Shown: piece by piece, positions 15,442-32,479 of the stretch
Layout of the letters: each line of letters begins with the position of its first letter
Position numbering within the stretch: position 1 is the first letter of the stretch
Source of the DNA: a marine bacterium B5-7
Lineage (GTDB): Bacteria > Pseudomonadota > Gammaproteobacteria > Arenicellales > CAJQKF01
Assembly (NCBI GenBank): GCA_021604525.1
Contig: BQJD01000018.1
Location: forward strand, 1 to 64,000
DNA: 64,000 bases
Direction of reading: 5' to 3'
Made by a program: the position numbers and the translations under genes
The notes under the pieces: generated by a model
The model's database searches: none
What the model was told of the DNA's origin: nothing
What the model saw: only the letters and a program-made list of their open reading frames with translations

Positions 15442-15876
15442 GGGTTCGCGATTCCTTGATAGGTACGGAACTAAAATGTTGATTCGGTGTTCTCCGCTAT
15501 TTCAAGCGGTGAAAACCTGCTGGGCAAGGCTCATGGGTGGCAGCCATGGGTTGTTGATGCACTGTGATGATAAAGACAAGTCTGAATGTCGGCGCAGACC
15601 TGATATCCTTTTCTACGCTGTGGTGAAAGCGCGAACTTGATGCGGAATGCGTTCACCAAAAGTATTCCATTTTATCGAGTGTTATCGTATCCATCAGCGC
15701 TCCACCAACTCGTTTGACCATGGATGATTGTCGGTCTTTTGTGTTGCAAAAGTGTGCCTGATAAATTGATATGGAAAATTATTCGAAATCGATCTTAATG
15801 CCAAGACAATAATATGTCGAACCATGGTGAGATGCGGATGAGTTTCGGAGTCCATTCAAAACAAGCTGGCGACAAC
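15442..15876. other. Divergent intergenic region
   Basis: About 430 bases between the start codons of the divergent DadA-like and enolase-superfamily genes. Promoters for both are expected here. I could not fix boxes or an operator, and the short open frames inside look random. Confidence 0.4.
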
Positions 15877-16977
15877 ATGAAAATAAAAAGCATAGAAACA
15901 TTCAGTACGGAGTTTGTCGGTTTCGTCCGGGTAACCACGGACGATGGTCAGCATGGGTGGGGTCAGGTGTCGACCTATAACGCGGACATCTCGGCGCTGG
16001 TGCTCCATCGGCAGGTTGCACCCTATGCTCTCGGTACAGACATTATGGAGCTGGACCGATTGATGGAGCTGATTCCCGATCGCGAGCACAAGTTTCCGGG
16101 TTCCTATCTTCGCCGGGCCATGAGCGGTTTGGACACAGCGGTGTGGGATCTTTATGGCAAGCTTGAAAACAAGAGCGTGTGTGAGTTGCTGGGCGGCACT
16201 CCTCGGCCGATCCGGGTTTACGCCTCCAGCATGCGTCGGGATATTAGCGCAAGGGACGAGGCGGATCGGCTCGTCCGGCTGCGTGACACCTGTGGTTACG
16301 ATGCCTTCAAGATCAGGGTGGGTAGTGAGTTCGGTCATAACGTCGACGAATCTCCGGGACGTACCGAATCCGTAATACCGACGGTACGCAAGGTTCTGGG
16401 CGATGATGTCGATCTGCTGGCCGACGCCAATTGCTGCTATACCGTCGACCGCGCTATTAAGGTTGGCCGTATGCTCGAGGACAACGACTATTGTCACTAC
16501 GAAGAGCCTTGCCCGTACTGGGAGTTGGAATGGATCAAGCAGGTAACCGACGCGCTGGATATCGATGTCACAGGCGGTGAACAGGACTGTGATCTGGCAA
16601 CATGGCGGCGCATGGTTGCCATGGGGGTTGTCAATGTATTGCAACCGGATATCTGTTATCTGGGTGGGATCAACCGTACGCTTAAAGTAGCGGAACTGGC
16701 GCTACAGTCCGGATTGCCCTGTACGCCTCACTCGGCCAACCTTTCCCTGGTTACCGTTTTCACGCTGCACCTCATGGGTGCCATCAAGGCGGTGGGTCCT
16801 TACGTCGAGTTCTCCATTGAAGGCGCCGATTACTATCCCTGGCAGGTAGGTCTTTACGAGCCGGTTCTCACGGCTCGCGATGGCAAGGTACAGATTCCCG
16901 AAGGGCCGGGCTGGGGGGTAGATATCAATACGGATTGGCTTGAACGATCGAGTTACCAGATTAGTAACCTGGATTAG
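15877..16977 (+). CDS. Mandelate racemase / muconate lactonizing enzyme family (acid-sugar dehydratase-like)
   Basis: A 366-residue enolase-superfamily enzyme, counted from the ATG at 15877 (an in-frame ATG at 15814 is possible but adds an unusual leader). The capping domain gives way to the barrel near residue 120. The barrel residues are K145 (DAFKIRVG), metal ligands D183 ([10 protein letters not shown]), E209 (YEEPCP) and E235 (TGGEQDCD), a second base H285 (CTPHSANL) and its partner D258 ([10 protein letters not shown]). This is the mandelate racemase-type Lys/His pair. Members abstract a proton next to a carboxylate, mostly in acid-sugar dehydration. The precise substrate is not evident. 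It is divergent from the DadA-like oxidoreductase. Confidence 0.88.
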
Positions 16978-17153
16978 TATCTGGAGTAAATGGTGATGGA
17001 CAACAGACTTAGCACGCCAGACTACAAACTCGAACCCTGCCGGAAAGCTCTATTTAATACTCCATGTCGAGTTGAATGTCGTCACGAGTATTGTTGGTTC
17101 GACAAGAGCAATAAGTGTTGTTTTCCTGCCTTCTTTTTCATATGAGAAATAGA

Positions 17154-17936
17154 ATGGTCAATTTCGTGATTGCAGGCGCACAAAAGTCTGGCACGACCGC
17201 GCTTGGAAGATACCTTCAATGTCATCGTGAAGTACTCATGCCAACCTCGCGTAAGGAACTGCACTTTTTCGACAACGATGAGCTATTTCAACAGGGAGAG
17301 CCGGACTACTCAATCTACCATGCGGATTTCGAGAACCCTGGGTACGGAGTCAAAGTGGTTGGGGAAGCCACTCCGATTTACATGTATTGGAGACCCGTTC
17401 CTGCGAGGATTTTTCAATACAACCGCCGAATGAAATGGATCATTCTGTTGCGGAACCCGATTACACGGGCGTATTCCCACTGGAACATGGATCATCGGCG
17501 GGGCATGGAGACGCATGAATTCATGGATGCACTGATGATGGAACTGGAAGACATGTCCAACCCAAACCCATCATGTCAAAGTCGTACCGCGTATATCAGA
17601 CGGGGGTTGTATAGCGAGCAGCTCGAGCTGATCTATCGTTACTTTCCAAAAGACCAGGTTTTTGTCGAGAAAAGTGAACGGCTAGAACACGATCCAGAAA
17701 CAGTGATTAATAATATCTGTGAGTTTCTAAAACTCTCGCCGTTGGAGAACGTTGAGCTCAGGCGGGAACACGAGACGCCCTACCTGAAACCGTTGGGTAC
17801 GGAAGCACGACGTATCCTATGCGAATTTTATCGATCGGAAATCCATAGGTTGGAAGAAACCCTCGGGTGGAATTGTCGACAATGGCTTGAAGGTGGCGAG
17901 TCAGATACTTCTGTTCACTTTGAAAATTCATGTTGA
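17154..17936 (+). CDS. PAPS-dependent sulfotransferase (Sulfotransfer_1 type)
   Basis: A 260-residue enzyme that would move sulfate from PAPS to a hydroxyl of a sugar or peptide. The ATG at 17154 is preferred because the fold begins there (VNFVIAGAQKSGTTALGRYL). The 5'-phosphosulfate loop KSGTT is at residues 11-15, and the 3'-phosphate motif ILLRNPITRAYSHW at 97-110 includes R100 and S108. The domain resembles heparan N-deacetylase/sulfotransferase and bacterial NodH-like enzymes. It opens the predicted Pro-rich protein modification cluster and is followed after 49 bases by a second, different sulfotransferase. No signal peptide is seen, so it acts in the cytoplasm. Confidence 0.9.
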   Translation: MVNFVIAGAQKSGTTALGRYLQCHREVLMPTSRKELHFFDNDELFQQGEPDYSIYHADFENPGYGVKVVGEATPIYMYWRPVPARIFQYNRRMKWIILLRNPITRAYSHWNMDHRRGMETHEFMDALMMELEDMSNPNPSCQSRTAYIRRGLYSEQLELIYRYFPKDQVFVEKSERLEHDPETVINNICEFLKLSPLENVELRREHETPYLKPLGTEARRILCEFYRSEIHRLEETLGWNCRQWLEGGESDTSVHFENSC

Positions 17937-17985: not shown

Positions 17986-18609
17986 GTGCCATCATTGAAA
18001 CCGGTCTTTGTCCATATCAGTAAGAATGCGGGAACCAGCATCAGGAGGACGGCGGGTTCGGCAATCAAGGTTGCCGGGCATCGAACGGCCGCGAGCTGGG
18101 TCTCGCAGCACGGGCGGTCTGATCCGCTTTTCGCTGTAGTTCGTAATCCGTTCGATCGTGTGGTGTCCGAATACTTTTATCGGCACTCGCGTTATCTGGC
18201 AGGTGAAAAAAATCCACACCTCGCCAACCTGGACAAGTCATTCGATGAGTGGGTAATGTCGACTTACCGCGACGGCGAGTATCGTACCCTGAGCTTTTTC
18301 AAAGAACATGGCGTGCCATACAATGCGGTCAATATGATCGACGATTGCCTGATCTGGTTTCTGCCGCAAACGCTCTGGCTCACAGGCGAGAATGGCGAGC
18401 TCCTGGTGGATGAGACATTGCGTTATGAAACGCTTGACGATGACTGGGAATCTTTCGCCAGAAAGCATGGCATTAATGAGCAACTCGTTCGCCACAACTA
18501 CTCCAGCCGAAAGCGGGATTACAACACCTACTACTCAAAGGAGTCACGTGTGGTCGTACGGGAATACTTCAAGTCAGATTTTGATGCTTTTGACTATGCA
18601 ACCGATTGA
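17986..18609 (+). CDS. Sulfotransferase family 2-like protein
   Basis: A 207-residue protein starting at GTG. The opening LKPVFVHISKNAGTSIRR is the 5'-PAPS loop of the Sulfotransfer_2/Gal-3-O-type group, and FAVVRNPFDRVVSEYFYRHS (about residues 48-66) is the 3'-phosphate site. The remaining half is helical with several Asp/Glu residues. It is short compared with eukaryotic relatives but complete for bacterial ones. It is only distantly like the upstream sulfotransferase, so the two should differ in acceptor. Same strand and close spacing suggest one transcript with its neighbours on both sides. Confidence 0.88.
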   Translation: MPSLKPVFVHISKNAGTSIRRTAGSAIKVAGHRTAASWVSQHGRSDPLFAVVRNPFDRVVSEYFYRHSRYLAGEKNPHLANLDKSFDEWVMSTYRDGEYRTLSFFKEHGVPYNAVNMIDDCLIWFLPQTLWLTGENGELLVDETLRYETLDDDWESFARKHGINEQLVRHNYSSRKRDYNTYYSKESRVVVREYFKSDFDAFDYATD

Positions 18610-18754: not shown

Positions 18755-19753
18755 GTGAAGAAAAGCGCACTGGTTTGTGGTGCCGGTGGTTTCATTGGCT
18801 CGCACATGGTCAAGCGGCTCAAGTCCGAGGGCTTCTGGGTGCGGGGCGCTGATTTGAAGCTTCCGGAGTATTCGGAATCGACTGCTGATGAGTTCCTCTT
18901 AGGTGACCTTCGCGAGCCGGAATTTTGTCAGTTGGCGCTGGATCGTCCGTTTGACGAGGTGTATCAGTTTGCAGCGGACATGGGCGGCGCGGGATATCTT
19001 TTCATCGGCGACAACGATGCCGATATCATGCACAACTCGGTGATGATCAATCTTAATGTACTCAGGGTATGTGCACAAAAGAGAATCGGGCGTGTGTTCT
19101 ATGCGTCCTCAGCTTGCGTTTACCCAATGTACAACCAGCTCGATCCAGGCAGCCCGAACTGTACCGAGGATACGGTGTATCCGGCAGATCCGGATAGCGA
19201 ATACGGTTGGGAGAAGTTGTTCAGCGAGCGGCTCTATCTTGCGTTTGCCCGAAATAAGGGAATCGTGTCTCGGGTAGCGCGATACCACAACATCTTCGGT
19301 CCCGAGGGCGCCTGGAACGACGGCCGGGAGAAGGTGCCGGCAGCCCTGTGCCGCAAGGTGGCCATGGCACAGGAAGGTGGCGAGCTAGAGATCTGGGGTG
19401 ATGGCGATCAATCCCGGTCATTTCTGTACATCGACGAGTGCATCGAGGCAACCTTGCGCCTGATGCGTTCGGACTGGATCGGTCCGGTCAACATAGGCTC
19501 CAACGAAATGGTCAGCATCAACCAGCTTGCCGAACGTATTATGGCTATCAGCGGCAAGACTCTAAGGATCCGGCATATCCCTGGACCACTTGGGGTGCGG
19601 GGACGCAACTCGGACAATCGACTTTTCCAGGAGAAGCTCGGGTGGCAGGTTTCCCAACCGTTGGTCGATGGATTGAAGCTGACCTATCCGTGGATAAAAA
19701 GCCAGGTCGAGGCAGCCGCGCGAAACAGAGAGGCTCAAGGTTCCAGCGGATAG
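18755..19753 (+). CDS. GDP-mannose 3,5-epimerase
   Basis: A 332-residue extended SDR enzyme that would convert GDP-D-mannose to GDP-L-galactose (and GDP-L-gulose). NAD binds at GAGGFIGSH (9-17). Motifs typical of plant GME follow: FAADMGGAGYLF, YASSACVYP, RYHNIFGPEG, GREKVPAALCRK, EIWGDGDQSRSF and RGRNSDN. C121, Y150, K154 and K193 sit at a constant offset of 24 from the catalytic C145, Y174, K178 and K217 that I recall for the Arabidopsis enzyme, which is strong support. The start is GTG. Its last 19 bases overlap the convergent glycosyltransferase gene. It probably supplies the nucleotide sugar for a transferase in this cluster, the protein O-fucosyltransferase-like one being the obvious candidate. 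Confidence 0.9.
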   Translation: MKKSALVCGAGGFIGSHMVKRLKSEGFWVRGADLKLPEYSESTADEFLLGDLREPEFCQLALDRPFDEVYQFAADMGGAGYLFIGDNDADIMHNSVMINLNVLRVCAQKRIGRVFYASSACVYPMYNQLDPGSPNCTEDTVYPADPDSEYGWEKLFSERLYLAFARNKGIVSRVARYHNIFGPEGAWNDGREKVPAALCRKVAMAQEGGELEIWGDGDQSRSFLYIDECIEATLRLMRSDWIGPVNIGSNEMVSINQLAERIMAISGKTLRIRHIPGPLGVRGRNSDNRLFQEKLGWQVSQPLVDGLKLTYPWIKSQVEAAARNREAQGSSG

Positions 19754-20886
19754 ACGAGTCTCGGCCCAAATCCGTCGCGACTGGAGTATGGCCATAGCAG
19801 GTATTGTACGGGGGTGTCGGTCAGACGGGTCTGTATTTCCACGTGGTCCGCGCACTTGGTCAGTATCCTGTCGTCCTTGATGTCGTAACGGTATAGCTCC
19901 TCGTCGTCCTCGTCCAAAAGACAAAATATCCAGTACTGATAATCATCACGCGCGTCGATCTCGCTGGTATTCAGTTGCAGGGTCTTTAGGTAGTCGACCG
20001 GATTTCTCTGCCTCTCGGCACGCTCCCGGAAACATATATCGGCGTATGTCTCGAATTCTTCCAGCGTTCGATTCGGACCCAGACCGTATGGGATGAGTTC
20101 GTGGTCTCGTCCCAGGACCAGATGTTGGAGACGCTCGATCGCACCCTTCCTTAAGGTCGTGTGCGTCAATGCATGGTCAGACCAGTGGAGCGGCATATCG
20201 TGGTCGTAGTAATGCCACAGCAAGTCTTCGTTCGGGTAGTAGAAGTTGTAGCCCCAGGTGTAGGCTCGAACGGCCAGGCTAATCTCTTCACCCTCGAAGT
20301 ACATGTTTGGATCGTATTCCACCTCGCGGCAAAAACGTCCGAGCGTAAAGATCATGCCGGCGGCCAGAAACGGGCTCTTCCCCGGCGCGGTCGTATCACA
20401 GGCGGGGATCGTCGACTGCATGGTGGTCAGGTTGCGACGGAATTTCGCCATCTTGAGCCGTTGAATACCACGGTCGAGCGTCAGCTCCTCCCGCCCGTCG
20501 ATGATCCGGTATGGTGGGGGATAGATGGTCAGTAGCGGTTTGTCATGGTCGATCGAACCGAGCATTTCGATACATTTTTCGTCCCAGTCCTGGGCAAAGC
20601 GCGTGTGCGAATCGATTTGAAGCGTGTACATCTCGTCCCGGTACAAGCGGTTAGTACGATGCCGTGCCCAGCAACAGCCGCGGCTTTCCCGATAGTAGAA
20701 CGGTTCGATACGAAAGCGGTTGTCGCCGATCCATTGATCCAGATCCAGCATGGTCGCTTCGTCATATTGCCAGCAAATGCCGAACGACAGCCTGTCAGGA
20801 TAGCGTGAGCGATCGAGGCAACTTTCGATAGTGAACGGTAGTTCCTTATCGCGGTACGAAGCGATCTGAACGAATATGCGATCCAT
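19735..20886 (-). CDS. GT60-like GlcNAc transferase (Skp1 hydroxyproline type)
   Basis: A 383-residue glycosyltransferase of the family that includes Dictyostelium Gnt1, which adds GlcNAc to hydroxyproline of Skp1. The start IFVQIASYRDKELPFTIESC, the middle ESRGCCWARHRTNRLYRDE and the metal/donor motif TLQIDSHTRFAQDWDEKC (DxH in place of a classic DxD) are characteristic. So is the later MYFEGEEISLAVRAYTWGYN acceptor-side segment. The last 100 residues form a small extra domain with many Asp/Glu/Tyr. The same catalytic domain occurs again inside the 1170-residue fusion at 24760-28272, so the locus has two. No signal peptide is seen. Confidence 0.85.
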   Translation of the reverse strand: MDRIFVQIASYRDKELPFTIESCLDRSRYPDRLSFGICWQYDEATMLDLDQWIGDNRFRIEPFYYRESRGCCWARHRTNRLYRDEMYTLQIDSHTRFAQDWDEKCIEMLGSIDHDKPLLTIYPPPYRIIDGREELTLDRGIQRLKMAKFRRNLTTMQSTIPACDTTAPGKSPFLAAGMIFTLGRFCREVEYDPNMYFEGEEISLAVRAYTWGYNFYYPNEDLLWHYYDHDMPLHWSDHALTHTTLRKGAIERLQHLVLGRDHELIPYGLGPNRTLEEFETYADICFRERAERQRNPVDYLKTLQLNTSEIDARDDYQYWIFCLLDEDDEELYRYDIKDDRILTKCADHVEIQTRLTDTPVQYLLWPYSSRDGFGPRLVYPLEP

Positions 20887-20918: not shown

Positions 20919-22955
20919 CTATCCGAAAAACCGCTGATGGAACTCGGCCATCTGCCCGATCATGTCGGTTTTGAAATGATAGTGATAAGCGTTCTCGACG
21001 GGCACCTGGACGGCCGGGTCTTTGTCAACGTAATCGATCATCCAAACTGACGGGGGCCTGACAAATGTGTTGTCCTCGGTTGGGCGCCGATCGGCGAGAA
21101 TGTTCTCGACGATTTGTTCCTCGGGTGTATCGCTGAAGTGGCGCGCGATCCACGAGCTAATCGCAACGTCGTCCGCGAACCGACCCTCGTTATCCCCGAT
21201 GATGCGGTAGGTGTCGGCGATAATTCGCTTGATCATGTCGATGGAGAAAAGCATCGATGCGCCACTAACGTATGGGCGGCCGGTGAACTCGCAGATGGCG
21301 ACCGGTCCATGAAACAGCATGTCGTCCTCGACTGACTCCACGTAATCTCGCAAGCGAGATTGATCGACGTAGCTGGAGGCACACACCGTGTAGACAAAGT
21401 CGTACTTGTTGGTGCTGGCGAGATGATTGAATGCGATCAGGCGCTTTCTGAGCAAACTGTCGTTTTGCAGGTGTATCGCGTCAGCACAGCCGCAGGCAAT
21501 CACGTTTCCCGATTGACGCGTCTGGAAAGCGGACAAGGATGGCGCGTCTCGACCGATGTATTTCTCGACGGCGTTCGTACTGACCACGGAGGGGTCGAAG
21601 TGTGATCCGATTGCGTAGAAGATGTCGATACCGGTGAATCGTCTGGAAGCCCAGGTCCGTTCGATGACGTCGAGACAGGTCACGTATTGGGGTAGAAGGC
21701 AGCCAAGAACGAGGACTGCGACTGACTTGCCGCGGACACCGCTGTCAGGCACAAGCGCCAACGGACGGCTGTCGGCAATACTGATCCTGGTCGATTCTTC
21801 TTGATCGACGGGTTCGGGTTGTTTGTGATCTGTTTCAACCGCGGCGAGTTGCGATAGGGGGAAATATAGCGTCTTGTCCCCAAGTTCGAGGTAGAACAAC
21901 TCGTTGTCGGCGGTATTCGCGTTGCCGGCGCGGGTTAATGCCAGCAACAACTGGTCCAGGATCGGATTATCGCAAGGGCAGGACAGCTCCAGCGGATCCA
22001 TCCCGTGCAGGTAAACGGTAACGTCGACGATCTCGGCGTCGGTCGTTGCTGGTGAATCGGCACAGTGGTGGTGTTCGACCGGCTCCGCCGGGCGTGCCTC
22101 AGTCAGGGCTCGCCGCCTGAGCGCGTCGCGTTCCTGTCGCGCTTCGTCAAATCCAGCACGCAGGCGTCCATAGTGTTGCAGCATGTCTCGGGCTGTATGT
22201 GATAGTGCCCCGCCAGACGTGTCGACTGTGTCTTCACACAAGGCGCGGTACAAGTCGGTTTGGCTATTGTTCATGAAAGCCAGTTGATCCGGGTCGTGTC
22301 GGGGTGAGATGTCGGGAGCACAGGAGATGACCCGCTTGAGCGCGGTTTCGACTTGCAAGGCAACTTTGAAATCGAGGCCCAGTAGTTTGCACAATCTCGA
22401 CAAGGATGCTTCAAGATTGGTCGCGCTGGATTCTTTGGAAATGAGCAGGCGCCGCGTGTCACGGGTATTCGCGAGGGCGGCGCGCAGGTAGTACTCCCAA
22501 AGCGCTAGCCCGTATGCGATGGGGAATCGCCATGTTTGCTGAAGCCGGGAGGCAACGTCGCAGGGGTGCTCGACGCAAATCACGTACACTGGTCCGGGAA
22601 TGTACTGCCTCCAATAGGGTACAAGGACACACATCGCCGGGTCGTTGCAGGTCCAGCGCTCCAGATGGTTCAGGGTGTCGCCACAGCTTTTTAACTGGCG
22701 ATCCAGGTCATGGGGCAGGGTGGACGGCTCGCCGCCAAGGGGCAAATTTTCGACGTGGTACCAGGTCGATTGCAGGGCTGAAAAAATCTGTTCGTTGATG
22801 AGACGAATCTGGTTAACAGGTGGCGCGTCGCCGGCTGCTGTACCCGCTGCATCGGCTTCACCCGAGTCCGATTCCAGCGGCCAGCCTGTCGAGTCGACGA
22901 GTCGTGCGTGCCACTCGGCATCTCCGCCGGGTGCCGACAACAGGATCAATTGCAT
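20919..22955 (-). CDS. Fusion of sulfotransferase-like and GT31-like domains
   Basis: A 678-residue protein of three parts. Residues 1-205 resemble sulfotransferase-like proteins (LILLSAPGGDAEWHARLVD, CVLVPYWRQYIPGPVYVICV, EHPCDVASRL), but the usual SGTS of the PAPS loop is replaced by GGDAE, so sulfate transfer is doubtful. Residues 308-374 are a roughly 65-residue domain (DVTVYLHGMDPLELSC...) that also occurs in the 1170-residue neighbour. Residues 409-605 look like a GT31/Fringe-type galactosyltransferase: VAVLVLGCLLPQYVTC, KYDFVYTVCASSYVD, PYVSGASMLFS, and the late RFADDVAIS with the catalytic Asp pair. A divergent promoter region of about 180 bases separates it from the Pro-rich protein gene. 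Confidence 0.7.
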   Translation of the reverse strand: MQLILLSAPGGDAEWHARLVDSTGWPLESDSGEADAAGTAAGDAPPVNQIRLINEQIFSALQSTWYHVENLPLGGEPSTLPHDLDRQLKSCGDTLNHLERWTCNDPAMCVLVPYWRQYIPGPVYVICVEHPCDVASRLQQTWRFPIAYGLALWEYYLRAALANTRDTRRLLISKESSATNLEASLSRLCKLLGLDFKVALQVETALKRVISCAPDISPRHDPDQLAFMNNSQTDLYRALCEDTVDTSGGALSHTARDMLQHYGRLRAGFDEARQERDALRRRALTEARPAEPVEHHHCADSPATTDAEIVDVTVYLHGMDPLELSCPCDNPILDQLLLALTRAGNANTADNELFYLELGDKTLYFPLSQLAAVETDHKQPEPVDQEESTRISIADSRPLALVPDSGVRGKSVAVLVLGCLLPQYVTCLDVIERTWASRRFTGIDIFYAIGSHFDPSVVSTNAVEKYIGRDAPSLSAFQTRQSGNVIACGCADAIHLQNDSLLRKRLIAFNHLASTNKYDFVYTVCASSYVDQSRLRDYVESVEDDMLFHGPVAICEFTGRPYVSGASMLFSIDMIKRIIADTYRIIGDNEGRFADDVAISSWIARHFSDTPEEQIVENILADRRPTEDNTFVRPPSVWMIDYVDKDPAVQVPVENAYHYHFKTDMIGQMAEFHQRFFG

Positions 22956-23136
22956 GGCTAATTCCTGGCGAACATGACGAAGGGATTTAATATGCGGTTG
23001 ACGATTGGCGAAGCGCCATCTCTTGCCGTCGAAGCCGACCTGACATGAATTGACTTATGTAGTGATAGACAGATAGACTTCAATTAATCTAACGGCTACG
23101 GCAAATTCGCGCAAGCTTTGCCTTGAGGTCCACGAT
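22956..23136. promoter_or_regulatory. Divergent promoter region of the Pro-rich protein gene
   Basis: The gap separates the 678-residue fusion gene from the Pro-rich protein gene. TTGACT (23050-23055) and TAGACT (23074-23079) lie 18 bases apart facing the Pro-rich gene, a weak but usable sigma70 match. A good ribosome site, TTGAGGT, ends nine bases before the ATG at 23137. Confidence 0.4.
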
Positions 23137-23466
23137 ATGTCAGACGAAGAAAACAAGACTCCCGAAGAGAAAAACAAGCAAAGCGCTCAACCCGATAAAC
23201 GCAAGACGGTCCGTCGGCTATTGACCGGCGGTGGCATCGTGACCGGCGCCAGCGCAGCGGGTGGCCGTTGGACCAAACCGGTGGTCGATTCCGTTCTACT
23301 GCCCGCGCATGCGCAAACGACCGGCGGGTCGCCGTCTCCAACGCCGTCCGTATCCCCGGCACCGACACCGCCACCCACCGACGTGCCGCCGCCGACACCA
23401 CAACCAAGCCCTAGCCCAACACCCGTGACGACGCCTTCGACGACGCCTTCGACGACAGGTGCTTAG
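23137..23466 (+). CDS. Small exported Pro/Ser/Thr-rich protein, candidate glycoprotein substrate
   Basis: A 109-residue protein with three parts. The first is a charged, Lys/Glu-rich head (1-23). The second is a Tat-like leader with R26-R27 (VRRLLTGGGIVTGASAAGG) leading into WTKPVVDSVLLPAHAQ, where AHA-Q (57-60) looks like a signal peptidase site. The third is a tail (64-109) of 46 residues holding 18 Pro and 19 Ser/Thr, largely SP, TP, PPP and TTPS repeats. Such a tail resembles plant extensin and arabinogalactan-protein modules. It is flanked by a prolyl-hydroxylase/glycosyltransferase fusion and other sugar and sulfate transferases, so I infer that it is their substrate. Nothing in it suggests an enzyme. 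The PAHAQT leader end recurs in small proteobacterial proteins of unknown role. Confidence 0.85.
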   Translation: MSDEENKTPEEKNKQSAQPDKRKTVRRLLTGGGIVTGASAAGGRWTKPVVDSVLLPAHAQTTGGSPSPTPSVSPAPTPPPTDVPPPTPQPSPSPTPVTTPSTTPSTTGA

Positions 23467-23495: not shown

Positions 23496-24737
23496 TTGAT
23501 TGTCTATTGGTGTGCCGACGATGAGTCGTGTCGGGACTATTTGCCGTCTTCCAGGCAGCGGAAGTACCTTACGTTTGAAGTCGACCGGGGTGGGCTAAAC
23601 AACATCCGCATGGCATTCGAATACGTGGTCGTCGTGGCCGCAGTTACCGGACGTACCCTCGTTCTACCGCCGCCCCAATCATGGTACCTTCTGCATCACG
23701 GACCGACGCACGAGAAACAATCGGGCGGTTACTGTGGCTTCGAGGACGTGTTCGACATCGATGCGTTGTCGAAGGTTGTACCAACCATCACCACTGCCGC
23801 TTTTTTACGCGCCGAACATCTCCATCTGGACATTGAGCCTTCGTTTGCGGACCCTGCAAGTCCGCTTTTGCAGGAGACGGCTCCTGTACCCATCGACCTT
23901 ATACGGCAATGGCAGCGTTGGCTGTTTGCAAGCACGCGCGTCATGTCATGGAACCCGTACGACACCGTGATCTGCCTGCCGGGCGTCGAGGCAGTGATGC
24001 GTGCGAACGTCCTGACAGAGCCGTTCATCGACCGTCGGGAACTGGTCGAGTTCACGCCGGCCATGGACGCTGCGCCGGTGATTCATTTCCCGTCCGGCAA
24101 CCACTACCGTCAACTCGGGCAGATCGCGACGATGCTGGCATGCAGTGATCCACAGTTTTTGAAAAATATACGCTTGCTGCTCAAGCACCACGTGCGCTAC
24201 GTGTCCCGCGTTTTCGAGGTTGCGGCGAGGTGTGTCGCGATGCTTCCCAAAGCTGGTTACTCCACCCTGCATATTCGGCGCAACGATTTCCAGTACTCGA
24301 ATTCGCGTGCGGATGCGGGACGTACCCTGGACAATATTCGCGCTCTCCTGAAAGAGGGCGAGCCGCTCTACATTGCGACTGATGAGTCCGATGAATCGTT
24401 TCTCGATCTGTTTCGACGGGAGCGTCCGGTTTATAGCTGGGCCGATTTCCGGTCGCCGCGTTGCGATGAGGTTGTAAACCACGAAAAGCTGAGGGATGAG
24501 CTCGTCGGTCCAGTAGAGCAGGTCATCTGCGCCACGGGTCGCGTATTTATTGGAACGGAGCTTTCAACTTTTTCAGGCTATATCACGCGACTCAGGGGCT
24601 ACATGGCGTCGCCGGATCGAAACACGTATTTTCATACGACCCGATATGATCGGTCAGATACGGCAGACGCACCCTCATCGCCCCACCGTGGTCGTGATTA
24701 CTTGCACGAATCACCCGAGCTGTGGGAGGGTCTTTAA
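23496..24737 (+). CDS. Protein O-fucosyltransferase-like glycosyltransferase
   Basis: A 413-residue protein related to eukaryotic GDP-fucose protein O-fucosyltransferases (PF10250 type). The donor-site region is YLTFEVDRGGLNNIRMAFEY at about 24-43, followed by GRTLVLPPPQSW. The C-terminal Rossmann half has STLHIRRNDF (conserved Arg for GDP-sugar binding), PLYIATDESDESFLDLF and VFIGTELSTFSGYITRLRGY. It starts at TTG 23496, 29 bases after the Pro-rich protein gene, the only plausible start before the conserved region. The pair is likely co-transcribed, implying that this protein acts on it. GDP-L-fucose is the usual donor, but the nearby GDP-mannose 3,5-epimerase points to GDP-L-galactose, a close analogue. 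Confidence 0.82.
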   Translation: MIVYWCADDESCRDYLPSSRQRKYLTFEVDRGGLNNIRMAFEYVVVVAAVTGRTLVLPPPQSWYLLHHGPTHEKQSGGYCGFEDVFDIDALSKVVPTITTAAFLRAEHLHLDIEPSFADPASPLLQETAPVPIDLIRQWQRWLFASTRVMSWNPYDTVICLPGVEAVMRANVLTEPFIDRRELVEFTPAMDAAPVIHFPSGNHYRQLGQIATMLACSDPQFLKNIRLLLKHHVRYVSRVFEVAARCVAMLPKAGYSTLHIRRNDFQYSNSRADAGRTLDNIRALLKEGEPLYIATDESDESFLDLFRRERPVYSWADFRSPRCDEVVNHEKLRDELVGPVEQVICATGRVFIGTELSTFSGYITRLRGYMASPDRNTYFHTTRYDRSDTADAPSSPHRGRDYLHESPELWEGL

Positions 24738-24759: not shown

Positions 24760-27700
24760 CTAGACAACGAACTCGTCATCGGTCTTATTGCTATCGTCTC
24801 CCGGTCTGAAGTGCACGAAAACGCTGGCGTAGCTGTCGCCGGCGAGCGCATCGGGCCTGCCGTGCAACAAACGTGCTCCCTCGTATAGCAACATGTCCCC
24901 GGGATGCATGTTGATCTTTAGCGGACGGTAGTAATTATCCTCGAGGTGTAGCGGCCAGTCCTTGTCAACAATCTGTTCAATATTCAGGATGGCGCTGAGT
25001 ATGTGAGTATCGATTCGATCACGGTGTAATGTCAGTGTGGCGCCGCGCCTGTAACGCCGAATTCCATACACAGCAGTCGACTCGAGTTTCTGACCGCACC
25101 AGCTCTCGAGGATCGGGCGCAAGGCCTTGCTCACTTCGATTTTAAGTGACCGAGGCAACTCGATCAGCTCGCTGGGGGTTCCCGATTCACTGCTGATATA
25201 GCCGGGAATAGATTCATCGAACGCCGACGCGCCCTGCTGCGTGTAGAATTGTTGCAGGCGTGACAACAGGTCCGATGGCATTTGCTCCTGCTTGTATCCC
25301 AATCGAGTATGGTTTGGTAAACACTCGGCCGGCTCCCGGCACCACATCTCCCCGCTCCCCTTCGATCTGAACCAAAACGTCAACACGGCCTTTTCGCCGG
25401 AGATCACCGGCTGGGCCCGATGCAATACGTCGGGATTCGGTGTCCCTGTGGGATAGAGATTATTCCACAGAACCACGCGTCCCGACGTTGGCTCGATAGT
25501 TCGACCAAGGCGAACCAACTCGGTCCCGCCGCCTTCGGCCACTTCGTTCAGATAGACCAGAGCGGTCCAGGTCCTTTGCCCACCCTTGGCATCATTGGCA
25601 TGTGTCTCAAAGGATTCTGTACCCGGGTCAAACCAGTCATAGTGCTCCTTGTATTCCTGACCCGGGAAGTAAATATGACCCTGCACGGGCTCGGCGTAGT
25701 TCGGGTTGATGCCCATCAACTTGCAAAGTCGCGTGCGCACACTATCGGCCAGCGGCACGTCCTTGAAATAACAGGTACTACTGGTGCGACCGGTCTCCGC
25801 ACCGGGCCCGCTGACCGTCGTGGACGGCTCCAGATCGGCCTTGATGGCAGAGACCAGCTCGGTGCATTCCTCGGCATTAAGGAAATCATCGACTACGTAG
25901 ATCTCGGCATTCGGCGTATCCAGCCGTTCGCCATTGGCGATGAAATGGTCCTCCGTTGCTGGTCTTTCAAACTCCAGTTCGCCGATGATCCGCTCCAGTG
26001 GCTCGGCGAGTTCGTGGCCGAGTTCCCGGGCAATCATTTCGTAGGCAAATCCTTTGTGGAGAAGTACTTTGAACAGGCTGTCCCGCGTACAGCCACGATT
26101 AACGTTGTCCCAGATCCAGTGCTTCCAGGTGTCGTCGAAACGAGCAGCTGCCGGAGACACCTGGCTTGTTGCACACTGCGACAGGAAAGCCTGACTGACC
26201 GGCGGCGACGCCTCTATCATCAGAAGTTGTGAACTCCTGAAGTAAAAAGCTGTCGGCGGATCGTCACCGAACTCGAGGTAAATGACGTCGTCACCGGCGC
26301 CGCCTGCCTGTTGGTTGAACAGCGCCTTGAACAGGGTCGCCAGCACCGGATTATCCTCGGAGCATGCCAGCTCCAGGGCGTCCATGTCGCGCAGCCGTAT
26401 GGTCAGCTCCAGCTCGGTTGGAGGTGAATTCGTGGTCACCGGTGTTACTCCAGATTTTTTTTCGTGTATTGATCCAGGCTTCGAGCGTAACGCCGGAATT
26501 GACGGTGGCACGCCGTTGGCGGCATCAGGATGAATGCTGTACGTACGGCAATCAAGTCCGGAGAAGCGCGTGAAATCTTCAAGCGTGCGCTGTTGTCCCG
26601 GACCGTAGCGTCCTAGCACTCCATCAGGGTCTCCTTCGAGCAGCGTCCGCAAACGATCCACGGCGATTTCGTGTTTTCGCCGGACTACCTCATCCGCGCC
26701 GTCGCTGATGAATTTTGGGTTGGGCTTCGAATGGCACCGGTGCCAAACTACGATCCGGCTCGGGTTGAAAAGATCATAGCCGTGGGTGTAAGACCGAAGG
26801 GTGAGCGCGAACTCCTCACCGGTATAAAGATGCTCGGGGTCCTGCCTGACCTCTTCGTTCCACTCGCCGAGCGTAAAAACAAAAGCGCCGGACAGGAATC
26901 GGGTGGCCCTTGGAAAGTCGGTGTTATTAGTGATGCGTTTGTGGGGATGATGGATCCAGCCTTCCACGCTCCATGACTCGGCGATCGCGGTCGGTACAGC
27001 GGCGGGGTTGTCGATGTCGGTCAGTTTGATATTGTCGTCTGCATCCCGCGTATAAAGCGGCGGAAACCCGGTGATCAACGGCTTGTCGCCTGGCAGGTCG
27101 TCGAGCATCTGTATCAGCAGCAGATCCCAGCTCTCGATGAAACGCGTGTGGGAGTCGACCTGCAGGGTATACGTCTCGTCCCGATACAATCCCTGGACCT
27201 GGTGCCTTGCCCAGCATCCACCGTTTGATTCAGTGTAATCGAAGTTGAGAATCCGAAACCTGTCGTCGGATGAGAAACAGTCCAGACAATACCGATTAAC
27301 ATCGGGCCCGCCATCGTCGTCATATTGCAAGCAGATTCCGAATCGCAGATTCTCAGGCTGCGCGGCCTTGGCCAGGCAATTCTCGATTGTCGACACCAAC
27401 TCGGGCTCTCGATAGGCCGCGATGGCGATAAAGATCGTACTGTGTCTCGTTCTCTCTGCCGTCTGTCGAAGCTCTGCATACTCGTTAACAAGTCCGATAA
27501 CGTCGCGGCAGTAATCCAACGCCGGCGCCTCCGGCAACTCGACACGACGCCAAGGCTTATAGCTGTACTTTGACCACAATTTGCGGTCGTTGCGAGCGCG
27601 AATAATCTGACAGTAGTGAACGATTGGCGCGCCTTTCACTCGTTCCTCGGGCCAAGGCATCCAGGCGGCCAAATTTTCCAGGGAATAAACGATCCCAAGC

Positions 27701-28272
27701 TCCGCCGAAGCGACTACGAGAGCGAACATGTCGCTCTCCCAGCCGCCGGTTCGGGTGCGATACTCCCGCGTAAGCTCGATCCAGCGTGGCATCAAGCGTT
27801 TGAGGTCGTCGGTGTGAATAAGCATCGGCCATGTACATGGCTGAAGTGCGGCGTAATCAACGTCGCTGAACTCACGTGTAATTGCCTTTCGGGAATCGGT
27901 GAAGCCGAAATCCAGCCAGTGTTGACATCGGGGACTGCCTGGTACGACCTCCGTTGCCAGACTTTTACGGAAAAGGAAGTCCGGATCGAGAATCAGCACG
28001 GTGCCCGACGGCTGGTGTTTCGATAGCCATTCGTCGAGTGAATACAGTCTGTTATACGGTGGGTACGTGTCCCCGGTATCCGGATCGGTGTTGGTGAATC
28101 GCGTACGAATCACCTGGGCGTGGCGGTGGACAGGAAGCGGCGTCGAATCCGGGCATGCCACCAGTCTGATAAGCTCACCCGGTTGCTCGCACTTGCTCCA
28201 CGAGTACTCGATCAGCTCGCATTGCCAATGAATCAGGTCGGACGTGTCCGTGCAGATCAAGGAATATATCAA
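24760..28272 (-). CDS. Fused HPAT/SERGT-like + GT60-like transferases + prolyl-4-hydroxylase + second 2OG oxygenase
   Basis: A 1170-residue fusion. (1) Residues 1-230 resemble plant Hyp O-arabinosyltransferase (HPAT) and peptidyl-Ser galactosyltransferase (SERGT): DTYPPYNRLYSLDEWL, metal motif D96-P-D98 in VLILDPDFLF, WPMLIHTDDLKRLMPRW, GGWESDMFALVVASAELG. (2) Residues 277-570 are a GT60-like GlcNAc transferase (GGCWARHQVQGLYRDE, QVDSHTRFIESWD). (3) Residues 619-688 are the small domain shared with the 678-residue protein. (4) Residues 787-970 are a prolyl-4-hydroxylase: H877 and D879 in KEHYDWF, H951, K961, and QRTWTALVYLNEVAEGGGTE. (5) Residues 985-1157 are another 2OG-Fe(II) domain with H1083-R-D1085 and H1137. 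It could thus hydroxylate Pro and glycosylate Hyp or Ser in one polypeptide. The start is TTG. It converges on the fucosyltransferase-like gene. Confidence 0.87.
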   Translation of the reverse strand: MIYSLICTDTSDLIHWQCELIEYSWSKCEQPGELIRLVACPDSTPLPVHRHAQVIRTRFTNTDPDTGDTYPPYNRLYSLDEWLSKHQPSGTVLILDPDFLFRKSLATEVVPGSPRCQHWLDFGFTDSRKAITREFSDVDYAALQPCTWPMLIHTDDLKRLMPRWIELTREYRTRTGGWESDMFALVVASAELGIVYSLENLAAWMPWPEERVKGAPIVHYCQIIRARNDRKLWSKYSYKPWRRVELPEAPALDYCRDVIGLVNEYAELRQTAERTRHSTIFIAIAAYREPELVSTIENCLAKAAQPENLRFGICLQYDDDGGPDVNRYCLDCFSSDDRFRILNFDYTESNGGCWARHQVQGLYRDETYTLQVDSHTRFIESWDLLLIQMLDDLPGDKPLITGFPPLYTRDADDNIKLTDIDNPAAVPTAIAESWSVEGWIHHPHKRITNNTDFPRATRFLSGAFVFTLGEWNEEVRQDPEHLYTGEEFALTLRSYTHGYDLFNPSRIVVWHRCHSKPNPKFISDGADEVVRRKHEIAVDRLRTLLEGDPDGVLGRYGPGQQRTLEDFTRFSGLDCRTYSIHPDAANGVPPSIPALRSKPGSIHEKKSGVTPVTTNSPPTELELTIRLRDMDALELACSEDNPVLATLFKALFNQQAGGAGDDVIYLEFGDDPPTAFYFRSSQLLMIEASPPVSQAFLSQCATSQVSPAAARFDDTWKHWIWDNVNRGCTRDSLFKVLLHKGFAYEMIARELGHELAEPLERIIGELEFERPATEDHFIANGERLDTPNAEIYVVDDFLNAEECTELVSAIKADLEPSTTVSGPGAETGRTSSTCYFKDVPLADSVRTRLCKLMGINPNYAEPVQGHIYFPGQEYKEHYDWFDPGTESFETHANDAKGGQRTWTALVYLNEVAEGGGTELVRLGRTIEPTSGRVVLWNNLYPTGTPNPDVLHRAQPVISGEKAVLTFWFRSKGSGEMWCREPAECLPNHTRLGYKQEQMPSDLLSRLQQFYTQQGASAFDESIPGYISSESGTPSELIELPRSLKIEVSKALRPILESWCGQKLESTAVYGIRRYRRGATLTLHRDRIDTHILSAILNIEQIVDKDWPLHLEDNYYRPLKINMHPGDMLLYEGARLLHGRPDALAGDSYASVFVHFRPGDDSNKTDDEFVV

Positions 28273-28753: not shown

Positions 28754-29458
28754 ATGCCGGTATATTTCAAGCACAAGTTGGTCCACATTCACATCCCCAA
28801 GACGGCGGGTACGGCAATCGAACGGTTCTTCCATCGTATAGGTGATATGGAATGGGGAACGAAATCATGGCTCGGCCAAAAACGGCATGACGAACGGTGG
28901 TATGAATATCAACACTTTTCCCTGGAAGAACTGTGGCACTTTGCGGGCACGCGTTTTCCCGGTTTCACGTCTTTTGCGGTCGTACGCGACCCGTTGACGC
29001 GATTGATCTCGGATTTTATCTGGCGTAGCTGGATACAGGAAGCACATCCGAATTCGCCTACGCAATTCTTCGACTCCTTCGATGAGTTTCTGGATGCGAT
29101 TCCAGACGATATCAACAGTGGCTGGTCAAAACATATCCAGGGCACCGATCAAAAGTGGGCAAACTTCCTGATTCATGTTCGTCCGCAGCACCATTTTGTT
29201 CTCGACGATTCGGGGAACTGTCTGGTGGACGTAATTCTCCGCTACGAGGTCCTGCCACAGGACTTTGCGTTGTTTCTCGAGCCTTTCGGATTGCGTGCAG
29301 ACAATATCAAGACGCCGCCGATCCGGGATCCTGACGAGTATTTCACCCGCGAACAAATCGAGCGGATCAAGACAATTTATGCCGGAGACTTCGCATTAAC
29401 ATCGCTCCCGAAGAACGCGACAGTCCCTATGATGTATGAGGGGGGTAATGCGTCATGA
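28754..29458 (+). CDS. Sulfotransferase family 2-like protein
   Basis: A 234-residue PAPS-dependent sulfotransferase. The 5'-loop is HKLVHIHIPKTAGTAIERFF (residues 6-25), an exact fit to the IPKTAGT signature. The 3'-phosphate motif is SFAVVRDPLTRLISDFIWRS (about 74-93). The remaining part ends with a helix typical of heparan 2-O and uronyl-type enzymes (YFTREQIERIKTIYAGDFAL). It is followed after 58 bases by the GT77-like gene, and then by a GT92-like gene on the same strand, which suggests a three-gene transcript. It is clearly different from the other sulfotransferases in the cluster, so a distinct acceptor is likely. Confidence 0.9.
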   Translation: MPVYFKHKLVHIHIPKTAGTAIERFFHRIGDMEWGTKSWLGQKRHDERWYEYQHFSLEELWHFAGTRFPGFTSFAVVRDPLTRLISDFIWRSWIQEAHPNSPTQFFDSFDEFLDAIPDDINSGWSKHIQGTDQKWANFLIHVRPQHHFVLDDSGNCLVDVILRYEVLPQDFALFLEPFGLRADNIKTPPIRDPDEYFTREQIERIKTIYAGDFALTSLPKNATVPMMYEGGNAS

Positions 29459-29516: not shown

Positions 29517-30368
29517 TTGACGGATCAGACGCCAACCAAAAAGTTGTCGTCCCTTGCAGTCGACATGCATCGAGCATACGTCGCCGAGGAAGAAAATCGT
29601 CGGCACAAACTCGATGCGCTGTTGGCGGGAGGCTCGCGTAACAACGTTGTATTGGTGATGATGGCAAACCGGGGATACAACGACCTGTTCAACAACTGGG
29701 TTCGCTCGTGTGACTTAAAAGGCATTGAGGTGCGCTCCTGGTCCATTCTCTTCGCAGTCGATGAGGAGGCCGCCGCCAACGCTGAGCGTCAGGGATTTCG
29801 TAACTATATTGATGCCATCTCATATGGCGACCAGCCACGAGAAGCTGTTAAGGCTTTCGGTGATCGGGACTTTCGCCTCCTGATGTTCCAAAAGACAGCG
29901 ATCGTTCGAGACGTCCTGAGTCTTGGCTATGACGTTTTGTTCCAGGATGTCGACATGGTCTGGCGAAAGGATCCTTTAACTTATTTGCTGGATGAGGGGG
30001 CAGTGGAATTCGATGCCCGTTTTATGTATGACGGCCGTAACCGGTTTCACAAACCACTCCACGCCAATACCGGTTTCTTTCTGCTGCGCAACCGTCCGGC
30101 CAGTCGGAAATTCTGGGACGAAGCGGTGTTAAGCTTCGCCGAGATGGCTCGCCGCGGCAGCCAGCAGTCCGTGATCAATTCTTTACTCGCCCAAGGGGGG
30201 TTGAGGGTCGATATCCTGCCCGAAGAGCACTTCGCCAACGGCCATCTTTTTAGCGTTAACCAACCGTCAAGGCTACCCGCCGACCCGTTCGTCATTCACT
30301 GTAGCTGGACCAGCAATCGCGAGCACAAGCTGTTGAAATACAAGCGCGAGAATTTGTGGTATCTCTAG
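29517..30368 (+). CDS. GT77-like nucleotide-diphospho-sugar transferase
   Basis: A 283-residue glycosyltransferase of the PF03407 type, related to GT77. That family includes plant extensin Hyp-arabinoside arabinosyltransferases (RRA, XEG113) and xylosyltransferases. The catalytic DxD is in LGYDVLFQDVDMVWRKDPL (about residues 138-156). Before it lies LLMFQKTAIVRDVLSLGYD, and after it the acceptor/donor segments HANTGFFLLRNRPASRKFWD, SQQSVINSLLA and FVIHCSWTSNREHK are conserved. The start is TTG with a strong GGAGG site seven bases upstream. No membrane anchor is seen, unlike the Golgi enzymes. In this cluster it would be suited to extend a sugar already attached to Hyp or Ser. Confidence 0.85.
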   Translation: MTDQTPTKKLSSLAVDMHRAYVAEEENRRHKLDALLAGGSRNNVVLVMMANRGYNDLFNNWVRSCDLKGIEVRSWSILFAVDEEAAANAERQGFRNYIDAISYGDQPREAVKAFGDRDFRLLMFQKTAIVRDVLSLGYDVLFQDVDMVWRKDPLTYLLDEGAVEFDARFMYDGRNRFHKPLHANTGFFLLRNRPASRKFWDEAVLSFAEMARRGSQQSVINSLLAQGGLRVDILPEEHFANGHLFSVNQPSRLPADPFVIHCSWTSNREHKLLKYKRENLWYL

Positions 30369-30412: not shown

Positions 30413-31483
30413 ATGCGTACTCCGACAGTCTCGATTCTTTGTGTCGCAAGAAACGAACCACCCTTTATAGAGGAGTGGCTGGAATACCACCTTATCCTTG
30501 GATTCGACCGGATCCATCTCGTCAGCACGGATGACTCCGTCACCGAGTTTGAGTCGTTCGCAAATGGATACCGCTTTGCTGAGAGCATCGAGCTGTATCA
30601 CTTCGACGACTTCAGGCCGGGGTGGCAGGTCAGATGCTATAACGCCTGTCTTCCCTTCATCAAGGAGGACTGGTTATTGGTAATGGATGTCGACGAATTC
30701 CTCTATCTGAGTGTTTACCAAACCATACAGGATTTCCTCGATGCCGTGCCCGGCGATGCAGGCCAGGTTCAGCTTCCCTGGTTAAACGTGCTTTCAGACA
30801 GCTACTTTCATGAGTGTACTTTTGATGTGCTAAATGAATCAAAAAAGTACGTTTCCAATCATGTAAAGAGTCTCGTCCGGCGGGAGCATGTGAGTGGACT
30901 CGGCATTCACTCTCATAAAATACATGGCCTCAAGAACATCTCTGGCGGCGCGGTTGAATTGCCTGCAAGTAATGTCCATCAGTTCGCCTTCGACAACCCG
31001 GGGTATTATGAAGAGCACCCGTTCGTGTTGCATTTTTTTTCGCGGGGTCATCTCGATGTTTTGAATCGGATTATTGACCATCGATTTTTCAACGCGAAAA
31101 ACGGGCCCATCGAAAGACAGAGACTCCACGACTTTCTGACGGGGGATCCCAACTGGACGAACATTCCCACCAAGTGCCTGATGATGCACTTTTATCGCAC
31201 GTTCCCCACGGTGGAATTAGACCTTGTTCTGCCGGATCTCAAGGCCGGGATTAATTTACCGGCGCTGAGACGTATATTTCTGGACAAGATTAACAGGGTT
31301 GTAGAATTTGATAGTGTTAGCAAAGAGTCGTTGGAGCATGATTTCGAGGCCCGCTACCTGCTTGCACATAAGCTCGCCATCATGGACTTGCCCGAAGTAT
31401 GGAGCCACGACGACTACTTTGAGTGTGGTACGCAACTTGAATATATCAAGCGACTACGAAACCTGTTGACGAGCACGACGTGA
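30413..31483 (+). CDS. GT92/GT2-like glycosyltransferase
   Basis: A 356-residue protein of the Glyco_tranf_2_4 / GT92 type. The N-terminal nucleotide-binding region SILCVARNEPPFIEEWLEYH is followed by LGFDRIHLVSTDDS and the DxD motif in DWLLVMDVDEFLYLS (about residues 83-97). The conserved SHKIHGLKN and IDHRFFNAKNG regions belong to the rest of the fold. Eukaryotic GT92 members add galactose to glycans, but bacterial relatives are mostly uncharacterised and occur with sulfotransferases in polysaccharide loci. It starts 44 bases after the GT77-like gene and appears to be the last gene of that transcript. Acceptor and donor are unknown. Confidence 0.85.
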   Translation: MRTPTVSILCVARNEPPFIEEWLEYHLILGFDRIHLVSTDDSVTEFESFANGYRFAESIELYHFDDFRPGWQVRCYNACLPFIKEDWLLVMDVDEFLYLSVYQTIQDFLDAVPGDAGQVQLPWLNVLSDSYFHECTFDVLNESKKYVSNHVKSLVRREHVSGLGIHSHKIHGLKNISGGAVELPASNVHQFAFDNPGYYEEHPFVLHFFSRGHLDVLNRIIDHRFFNAKNGPIERQRLHDFLTGDPNWTNIPTKCLMMHFYRTFPTVELDLVLPDLKAGINLPALRRIFLDKINRVVEFDSVSKESLEHDFEARYLLAHKLAIMDLPEVWSHDDYFECGTQLEYIKRLRNLLTSTT

Positions 31484-31599: not shown

Positions 31600-32385
31600 T
31601 CAAGTGAACAGGTTCGCGTGCTTGACCAGATCAATCCCCCATTGTTTGGCAAATGCTATGTCGCCTGCATATGCCTGGTAAACGGCGTCCAAAGTATCAG
31701 GGTCGTAATACTCGCTCATTTGTTCCGCGGCGTTTGTACGTGTGGGTAGCATATTTTGCTCAAAGATCACCTGGTTTTCATCGGCTCCCCAGCCGCTTAC
31801 GCCGTAGGGGTGCCAACAGTTTGCGGCATGGAGTACGTTGTGAATCCAGGATACTCGATCCAGGTAGTCACCCACAGGGTCGAGTGCCGAAGCCACTTTT
31901 TCAAGAGGTCCTACGAGGTGCTGGGATCTCCAGTGAGGATCGGTGTTCTCATGCAGACCGGTTGGTTTGCGCGGATCATCATTTGATTCCAGAATGTAGC
32001 CAAGGAACTCGGTGAACGGCATACCTCGGCCACCAGCACGAAACACGTTTGCTGCATAGCCGCCGTTGTAAATCAATTTATCAAGGTAGGCGGAAAGTAG
32101 TCTCTCCGCTGGATCTCGCAATAAGAGTGCTTTCGTCCATGAAGAGTCGTTGACTATTTTCTCAACGCGTTCCAGGCCCAATTTATTCAGGAAGGGTCGG
32201 TCGGAAGTATAGTGAGGATTATCACGCCAGTTTGTTGATCCGTTCATACGTCGCATGAGCTTGATCAGTTGTGTGCAGCAAACCTTCGGTATGGTGAATA
32301 GAACGAGCCGGTGACGTTCGTTTACAAGTACATGGTGTGCCATATACCGTAGATCGGCCTCGTCCAATCGTATCCTTGTATTCAT
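31600..32385 (-). CDS. Carbohydrate sulfotransferase (chondroitin/HNK-1 type)
   Basis: A 261-residue protein of the Sulfotransfer_2 group that includes chondroitin 4-O and HNK-1 sulfotransferases. The 5'-PAPS loop is LVLFTIPKVCCTQLIKLMRR (IPKVAC-like) and the 3'-phosphate site is TKALLLRDPAERLLSAYLDK. The eukaryotic relatives sulfate GalNAc, Gal or GlcA on glycoproteins and proteoglycans. I prefer the ATG at 32385 to the TTG at 32403. Convergent with the GT92-like gene, it closes the predicted modification cluster on its right. Length is normal and motifs are intact. Confidence 0.88.
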   Translation of the reverse strand: MNTRIRLDEADLRYMAHHVLVNERHRLVLFTIPKVCCTQLIKLMRRMNGSTNWRDNPHYTSDRPFLNKLGLERVEKIVNDSSWTKALLLRDPAERLLSAYLDKLIYNGGYAANVFRAGGRGMPFTEFLGYILESNDDPRKPTGLHENTDPHWRSQHLVGPLEKVASALDPVGDYLDRVSWIHNVLHAANCWHPYGVSGWGADENQVIFEQNMLPTRTNAAEQMSEYYDPDTLDAVYQAYAGDIAFAKQWGIDLVKHANLFT

Positions 32386-32479
32386 ATCGTCAGACGGTAT
32401 CAAGATGCTCGGTTTTACTCAAAAAATTCAGTTCATCATGCGGCTTTAAAAGATTGTTGAGTTAGATAAGAATAAGTAA

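Follow-up and report, generated by a model that had tools for sequence, protein, structure and literature searches.

The window analyzed here (the whole stretch of DNA, 64,000 nucleotides) contains a gene for a 109-aa protein that lies among genes for predicted oxygenases, glycosyltransferases, and sulfotransferases. The features of this region are as follows (handles beginning with G denote genomes, G000 being the genome from which the window comes).

17115-17936, plus strand: sulfotransferase (PF00685)
17986-18609, plus strand: sulfotransferase (PF03567)
18755-19753, plus strand: GDP-mannose 3,5-epimerase (source of GDP-L-galactose); match to Arabidopsis GME 2c59, E 6e-95
19735-20886, minus strand: stand-alone GT60 (PF11397) glycosyltransferase, 383 aa, E 1e-60, 206 bits against a cut-off of 21
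20919-22955, minus strand: 678-aa protein, family unassigned, with a small domain shared by several cluster proteins; N-terminal part conserved in the G001, G003, G439, and G475 clusters
22956-23136, unstranded: intergenic region between divergent genes, with a GAGG ribosome-site-like stretch 5' of the ATG and a putative promoter
23137-23466, plus strand: 109-aa candidate substrate gene, N-terminal Tat-like leader and Pro/Ser/Thr-rich tail; orthologues in G001, G475, and G022, split form in G003 and G439
23137-23313, plus strand: leader, residues 1-59, with K21-R22 at the Tat twin-arginine site, a W45-x-K-P48 basic c-region motif, and an LPAHA cleavage site
23314-23463, plus strand: predicted mature peptide, residues 60-109, 18 Pro and no Tyr, with putative cleavage after AHA
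23496-24737, plus strand: protein O-fucosyltransferase-like glycosyltransferase (O-FucT; PF10250), 413 aa, Pfam E 7e-27, PDB POFUT2 4ap5 E 1.5e-6
24760-28272, minus strand: 1170-aa multidomain enzyme (HPAT-like glycosyltransferase, GT60 GlcNAc-transferase-like domain, the shared small domain, prolyl-4-hydroxylase (P4H), and a second 2OG-Fe(II) oxygenase)
24763-25317, minus strand: second 2OG-Fe(II) oxygenase domain (HRD...H) of the 1170-aa protein; structural match 6n1f, Z 16.5
25318-25905, minus strand: P4H domain of the 1170-aa protein, with HxD...H...K unchanged across six genomes
26548-27438, minus strand: GT60-like domain (PF11397) of the 1170-aa protein, 163 bits for the fused protein
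27613-28260, minus strand: HPAT-like domain (PF23452) of the 1170-aa protein, E 2e-10
28754-29458, plus strand: sulfotransferase (PF03567); homologues in the G001, G003, and G475 clusters
29517-30368, plus strand: PF03407 nucleotide-sugar transferase; also in the G003, G439, and G475 clusters
30413-31483, plus strand: GT2/GT92-like glycosyltransferase; also in G475
31600-32403, minus strand: sulfotransferase (PF03567)

The product of the ORF at 23137-23466 is MSDEENKTPEEKNKQSAQPDKRKTVRRLLTGGGIVTGASAAGGRWTKPVVDSVLLPAHAQTTGGSPSPTPSVSPAPTPPPTDVPPPTPQPSPSPTPVTTPSTTPSTTGA. Our analysis recovered the leader ending in PAHA|QT that the initial annotation had reported for this ORF, the 18 Pro and 19 Ser/Thr it had counted in the 46 residues from 64 to 109, and the POFUT-like gene it had placed 29 bases downstream, a gap of 24 bases in the same-genus orthologue from G001 (L112:4219-4539). 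The presence of at least 18 Pro in the 48-codon tail has a binomial P of 7e-12 against the 5.0% Pro of the long ORFs of the window, and since the remaining five frames of the same DNA encode just 2-13% Pro, this richness does not merely reflect C-rich DNA. When the gene is compared with the G001 orthologue, the reading frame is preserved, the dN/dS of the leader is 0.07 (0.094/1.38), and third codon positions hold 26 of the 48 differences in the aligned tail, an excess. These results show that the ORF, including the tail, is translated, as the annotation had supposed, and that the gene is under purifying selection. Its description of the tail as extensin-like is apt in a loose sense, with no SPPP repeats (the longest Pro run is 3) and no Tyr, hence no Tyr-X-Tyr cross-link motif. 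Literal membership of the extensins was rejected on the absence of both Ser-Pro(3-5) repeats and Tyr-X-Tyr.

The leader belongs to a larger family. In its own genome it has 20 matches, whose payloads are otherwise different, and matches were found in 22 of 41 genomes of the order (own genome included; about 18 strong), with the consensus RRxLLKxLTxGGG...LPxxWxKPVVESVxLPAHAQTT. Among 398 genomes sampled across the phylum the full leader occurs in the own genome only, and those relatives that carry names are uncultured Gammaproteobacteria MAGs. Because about 20 paralogues carry other payloads, the leader alone is not diagnostic of modification; this lineage uses it for export in general. About 120 copies are present in all genomes examined, mostly without such modifying enzymes nearby, and we therefore rejected the general rule that the leader marks modified proteins. 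The initial annotation had regarded widespread homologues lacking these enzymes as evidence against its proposal, a situation that holds for the leader and does not hold for the tail. Among the immediate neighbors of about 118 other leader genes, GT2 enzymes account for at least 8 and GT25 enzymes for at least 4 of 181, compared with fewer than 2 members of each among 117 distant control ORFs in the families listed, all of these counts being bounds drawn from the 25 commonest families. Two G000 payloads (L016 and L019) end like an S74 intramolecular chaperone domain, and others are Gly-rich (20 places, L009-L023). A split architecture, in which a leader-only ORF of 59-85 aa precedes a small leaderless payload ORF, also recurs (L113:12762-13475, L230:10768-11472, L017:5012-5617, L119:7155-7827, and L115:657-1417). 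The family is notable in its own right for joining one Tat-like leader, specific to the lineage, to about 20 unrelated payloads per genome.

As judged by inspection, Tat export of the focal protein is likely. The leader has a Gly-rich, weakly hydrophobic h-region, a basic c-region residue, and an AHA|QT cleavage site; Lys or Arg is found two residues after the conserved Trp in 94 of 121 leader homologues (K47 in the focal protein), and the genome encodes TatC (E 1.7e-70). A basic residue in the c-region, here at this position, is known to discourage Sec export. What counts against the Tat assignment is the twin-arginine site itself, when set beside the (S/T)RRxFLK-type motif of Tat substrates. 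The RR pair noted previously does exist (R26-R27), but in the family alignment the twin arginines fall on K21-R22, about four residues upstream; R22 is invariant in the family and R21 nearly always present, and the focal protein has K-R instead of R-R. In favor of Tat, the G003 and G475 orthologues keep RR. The Trp, the Pro, and LP.HAQ.T are invariant in the leader, a conservation beyond the needs of Tat.

Several lines of evidence bear on the enzymes. By sequence, the P4H domain matches the Bacillus anthracis, algal, and human P4Hs, with the B. anthracis enzyme the most similar (E 2e-20). We modeled the C-terminal 386 residues of the 1170-aa protein with AlphaFold (pLDDT 82). The P4H in this model, a double-stranded beta-helix, had as its first-ranked Foldseek match the algal P4H bound to a (Ser-Pro)5 peptide (3gze, E 1e-15), on which it superimposes with a Z of 24.1 and an rmsd of 2.4 Å over 181 residues; the iron ligands H93, D95, and H167 and the 2OG-binding K177 (A3 numbering) do not vary across six genomes. 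The last ~170 residues of the protein, for which a sequence search of the PDB gave nothing useful, did match another 2OG oxygenase in the structure search. The HPAT (GT95, PF23452) match scores 40.9 bits against a cut-off of 23.9 (38.8 in G022), a modest score from which acceptor and donor do not follow. GT60 and O-FucT are confined to the cluster and occur nowhere else in this genome. The PF03407 family includes GT77 enzymes. The 678-aa protein has no Pfam match, and its AlphaFold model (pLDDT 48) was too poor for a structure search. A GDP-mannose dehydratase (gmd) is encoded elsewhere in the genome (C10), so that restriction of the donor to GDP-L-galactose was not supported.

Two further features of these proteins were observed. 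An unnamed domain of ~70 aa without a Pfam match, possibly a docking module, is common to the 1170-aa protein (about residues 621-690), the 678-aa protein (310-377), and the PF03407 and O-FucT/HPAT proteins; outside the window it is encoded at L118:1365-3989, L113:7320-8741, and L233:651-2018. Close homologues of an enolase-superfamily sugar-acid dehydratase lie near the cluster in G000 (window 15814-16977) and G475 (L233:5267-6475).

A leader gene and an SP/TP/AP-rich protein occur together with P4H, GT60, HPAT-like, and O-FucT enzymes in six genomes (G000, G001, G003, G022, G439, and G475) that span four families of the order, and the substrate is present in every cluster in which the wider enzyme set is present. 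This recurrence, through fused, split, and rearranged forms, strongly supports the earlier proposal of a dedicated Tat-exported substrate beside its enzymes. Leader and Pro-rich part are fused in 4 of the 6 clusters and form two adjacent ORFs in the other 2. Among the fused forms, the G001 protein (tail SEPPTGNPSPTPATPQPTPSPTP...) and the G475 protein (L232:14115-14546, tail SPTPPPTLPPTGAPTSAPTGAPT) are each followed by O-FucT, and that of G022, whose cluster is on two contigs, lies at a contig edge (L118:4057-4254, tail SPTPPPSGATPQPTPGPTPAPTP...) adjoining an O-FucT-HPAT fusion and P4H, with GT60 on contig L116. In G003 (L113) a leader-only ORF of 73 aa is followed by a separate ORF starting MTTISPTCPPSSPCPTSAPIAPP..., and in G439 (L230) one of 59 aa by an ORF starting MPTIITSAPTSPPTTFSPTSAPTTFSPT...; neither Pro-rich ORF has a leader of its own. 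Readthrough joining the split ORFs was rejected, since several in-frame stops lie between them and they are separate genes.

A fully Pro-rich mature part (at least 25% Pro over at least 20 residues) was found behind 4 of the 6 cluster leaders and none of 118 others (Fisher P = 1.6e-6, a guide only, as the cut-off was set with the data already in view, the clusters have a common ancestry, and Pro-rich linkers occur elsewhere); for the remaining two cluster leaders, those of G003 and G439, the Pro-rich part is in the adjacent ORF. Because other leader proteins (L168, L154, L167, and L155) have Pro-rich linkers before folded domains without these enzymes, Pro-richness alone is no proof. The tail together with its neighborhood, unlike the leader alone, is diagnostic.

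Of 109 genomes of the order, 9 contain GT60, and in three of these (G002, G444, and G447) the gene is on a short contig or at a contig edge, with the rest of any cluster beyond reach. Across the phylum, 28 of the 398 sampled genomes have GT60, and HPAT was not found in any of the 397 other than the own genome. At 20 bacterial GT60 loci outside the order there was no leader, and P4H was found at one only, in an 875-aa protein of G367 that fuses P4H and GT60 (L266:6545-9172). The domain fusions thus vary (HPAT, GT60, and P4H in the focal genome, O-FucT and HPAT in G022, P4H and GT60 in G367), and such differing fusions of the same domains point to one pathway.

Based on the above genomic evidence, we propose, with a probability of roughly 70%, that the cluster acts on its own Pro-rich substrate, which would be hydroxylated and glycosylated in the cytoplasm, possibly sulfated, and then exported by Tat. 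The 109-aa protein is very probably the one decorated by the surrounding enzymes, with the tail as the putative site. Prolines of the tail (SP, TP, and PPP) would be hydroxylated by the P4H domain of the 1170-aa protein, and the adjacent second 2OG oxygenase may carry out another oxidation. Hyp, and perhaps Thr/Ser too, would be glycosylated by the GT60, HPAT-like, O-FucT, and PF03407 enzymes; in the sugar order that we infer, GT60 and the HPAT-like domain would modify Hyp first, and O-FucT, PF03407, and other transferases would extend the glycan, with L-galactose or L-fucose as the putative donor sugar, supplied in part via the epimerase at 18755. The glycosylated tail may then be sulfated. 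The modified precursor would presumably be routed to Tat by the leader that this order uses for many proteins, and cleavage at PAHA|QT would release a Hyp-rich glycopeptide of roughly 50 residues into the periplasm or beyond. The cosubstrates of these enzyme families, 2-oxoglutarate and nucleotide sugars, are found in the cytoplasm, and on inspection no secretion leader was apparent on the cluster enzymes, so that modification is expected before export. The Tat route accepts cargo that is folded or bulky.

The strongest alternative, which we consider unlikely, is that the tail glycans are mainly on Thr/Ser in a mucin-like (GT60/GT96-type) arrangement and that P4H acts elsewhere or on few prolines. 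The 19 Ser/Thr of the tail suit such a reading, and two relationships count against Hyp-linked glycans: relatives of GT60 can act on Thr and include mucin-type pp-alphaGlcNAcTs (PMC8724618), and among the relatives of GT95 is GT96, the family of the extensin Ser galactosyltransferase (PMC8012813). Against it, GT60 and HPAT share a polypeptide with the P4H in the focal genome, as GT60 does in G367 from outside the order, and the tails of all six clusters keep Pro spaced by Ser, Thr, or Ala.

A RiPP-like arrangement, somewhat less probable again, would be compatible with our proposal and concerns recognition: the leader would serve the enzymes as a recognition site as well as being a Tat signal, possibly via the shared small domain or PqqD-like proteins. 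It is in keeping with the unusual conservation of the leader, the ~70-aa domain common to several cluster enzymes, and PqqD-like genes near several leader genes, but modifying enzymes are absent near most leader genes, the payload of the split form has no leader, and four PqqD probes found no PqqD-like RRE in the window or near the focal gene. PqqD-like proteins are encoded near leader or GT60 genes at L009:8469-8738, L012:8907-9233, L116:25-333, and L121:7416-9011, that at L116 (G022) adjoining the GT60 gene; such neighbors hint at RiPP-like recognition in part of the leader family. It is equally improbable that the cluster serves to make or decorate a surface polysaccharide, or some other protein, and that the 109-aa protein is an ordinary member of the exported family whose disordered Pro/Thr tail is filler. 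The unrelated payloads of the paralogues, the Pro-rich linkers away from such enzymes, and the several glycosyltransferases and sulfotransferases of the window (as in polysaccharide clusters) might suggest as much. Against this, P4H belongs to a family of protein-modifying enzymes, the linkage is found again and again across four families, only in these clusters is the mature part Pro-rich throughout, and the tails remain Pro-rich although their sequences diverge.

If cytoplasmic hydroxylation and glycosylation of the tail are correct, the cluster would work like eukaryotic Hyp-O-glycosylation and be a bacterial version of it. The broader claim, to which we give even odds, is that one gammaproteobacterial order has a complete and self-contained Hyp-O-glycosylation pathway (P4H, Hyp-GlcNAc- and Hyp-arabinosyl-type transferases, further sugars, and possibly sulfation) with its own Tat-exported substrate, an unrecognized counterpart of plant HRGP and Skp1 glycosylation. 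Literature searches on bacterial Hyp glycosylation, on bacterial P4H with glycosylation, and on LPAHAQT returned nothing relevant from a literature set with few subscription papers. Hyp-linked glycans are described as predominant among the O-glycans on wall proteins of plants and green algae, and in protists as a modification of the nucleus and cytoplasm (PMC8724618).

The cluster resembles the O-arabinosylation of plant extensins and other HRGPs (P4H, the GT95 enzyme HPAT, and the GT77 enzymes RRA/XEG113) in having a Pro/Ser/Thr-rich exported substrate and in bringing together a P4H, an HPAT-like domain, and a PF03407 enzyme. It differs in being bacterial, in having apparently cytoplasmic enzymes whose genes are clustered with that of the substrate, in its Tat-like leader rather than a Sec/ER route, and in a tail without SPPP(P) repeats or a Tyr cross-link motif. 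In Dictyostelium, the Hyp-glycan of Skp1 (PhyA and the GT60 enzyme Gnt1) is likewise made by a cytoplasmic P4H followed by a GT60-type enzyme, and the enzymes of that pathway are cytosolic and often fused (PMC8724618). Skp1 is a folded cytosolic protein, whereas the candidate here is a Pro-rich, repetitive tail behind an export leader. Of the bacterial P4Hs (that of B. anthracis and the Pseudomonas enzyme acting on EF-Tu), the former is closest in sequence; we know of no description of a bacterial P4H with a clustered set of Hyp-glycosyltransferases or a dedicated exported substrate. If our reading is true, such a bacterial cassette, in which enzyme and substrate genes are neighbors, would provide a compact genetic system for Hyp-glycopeptides, would show cytoplasmic modification finished before Tat export, and would bear on the origin of the eukaryotic Hyp-glycosylation pathways.
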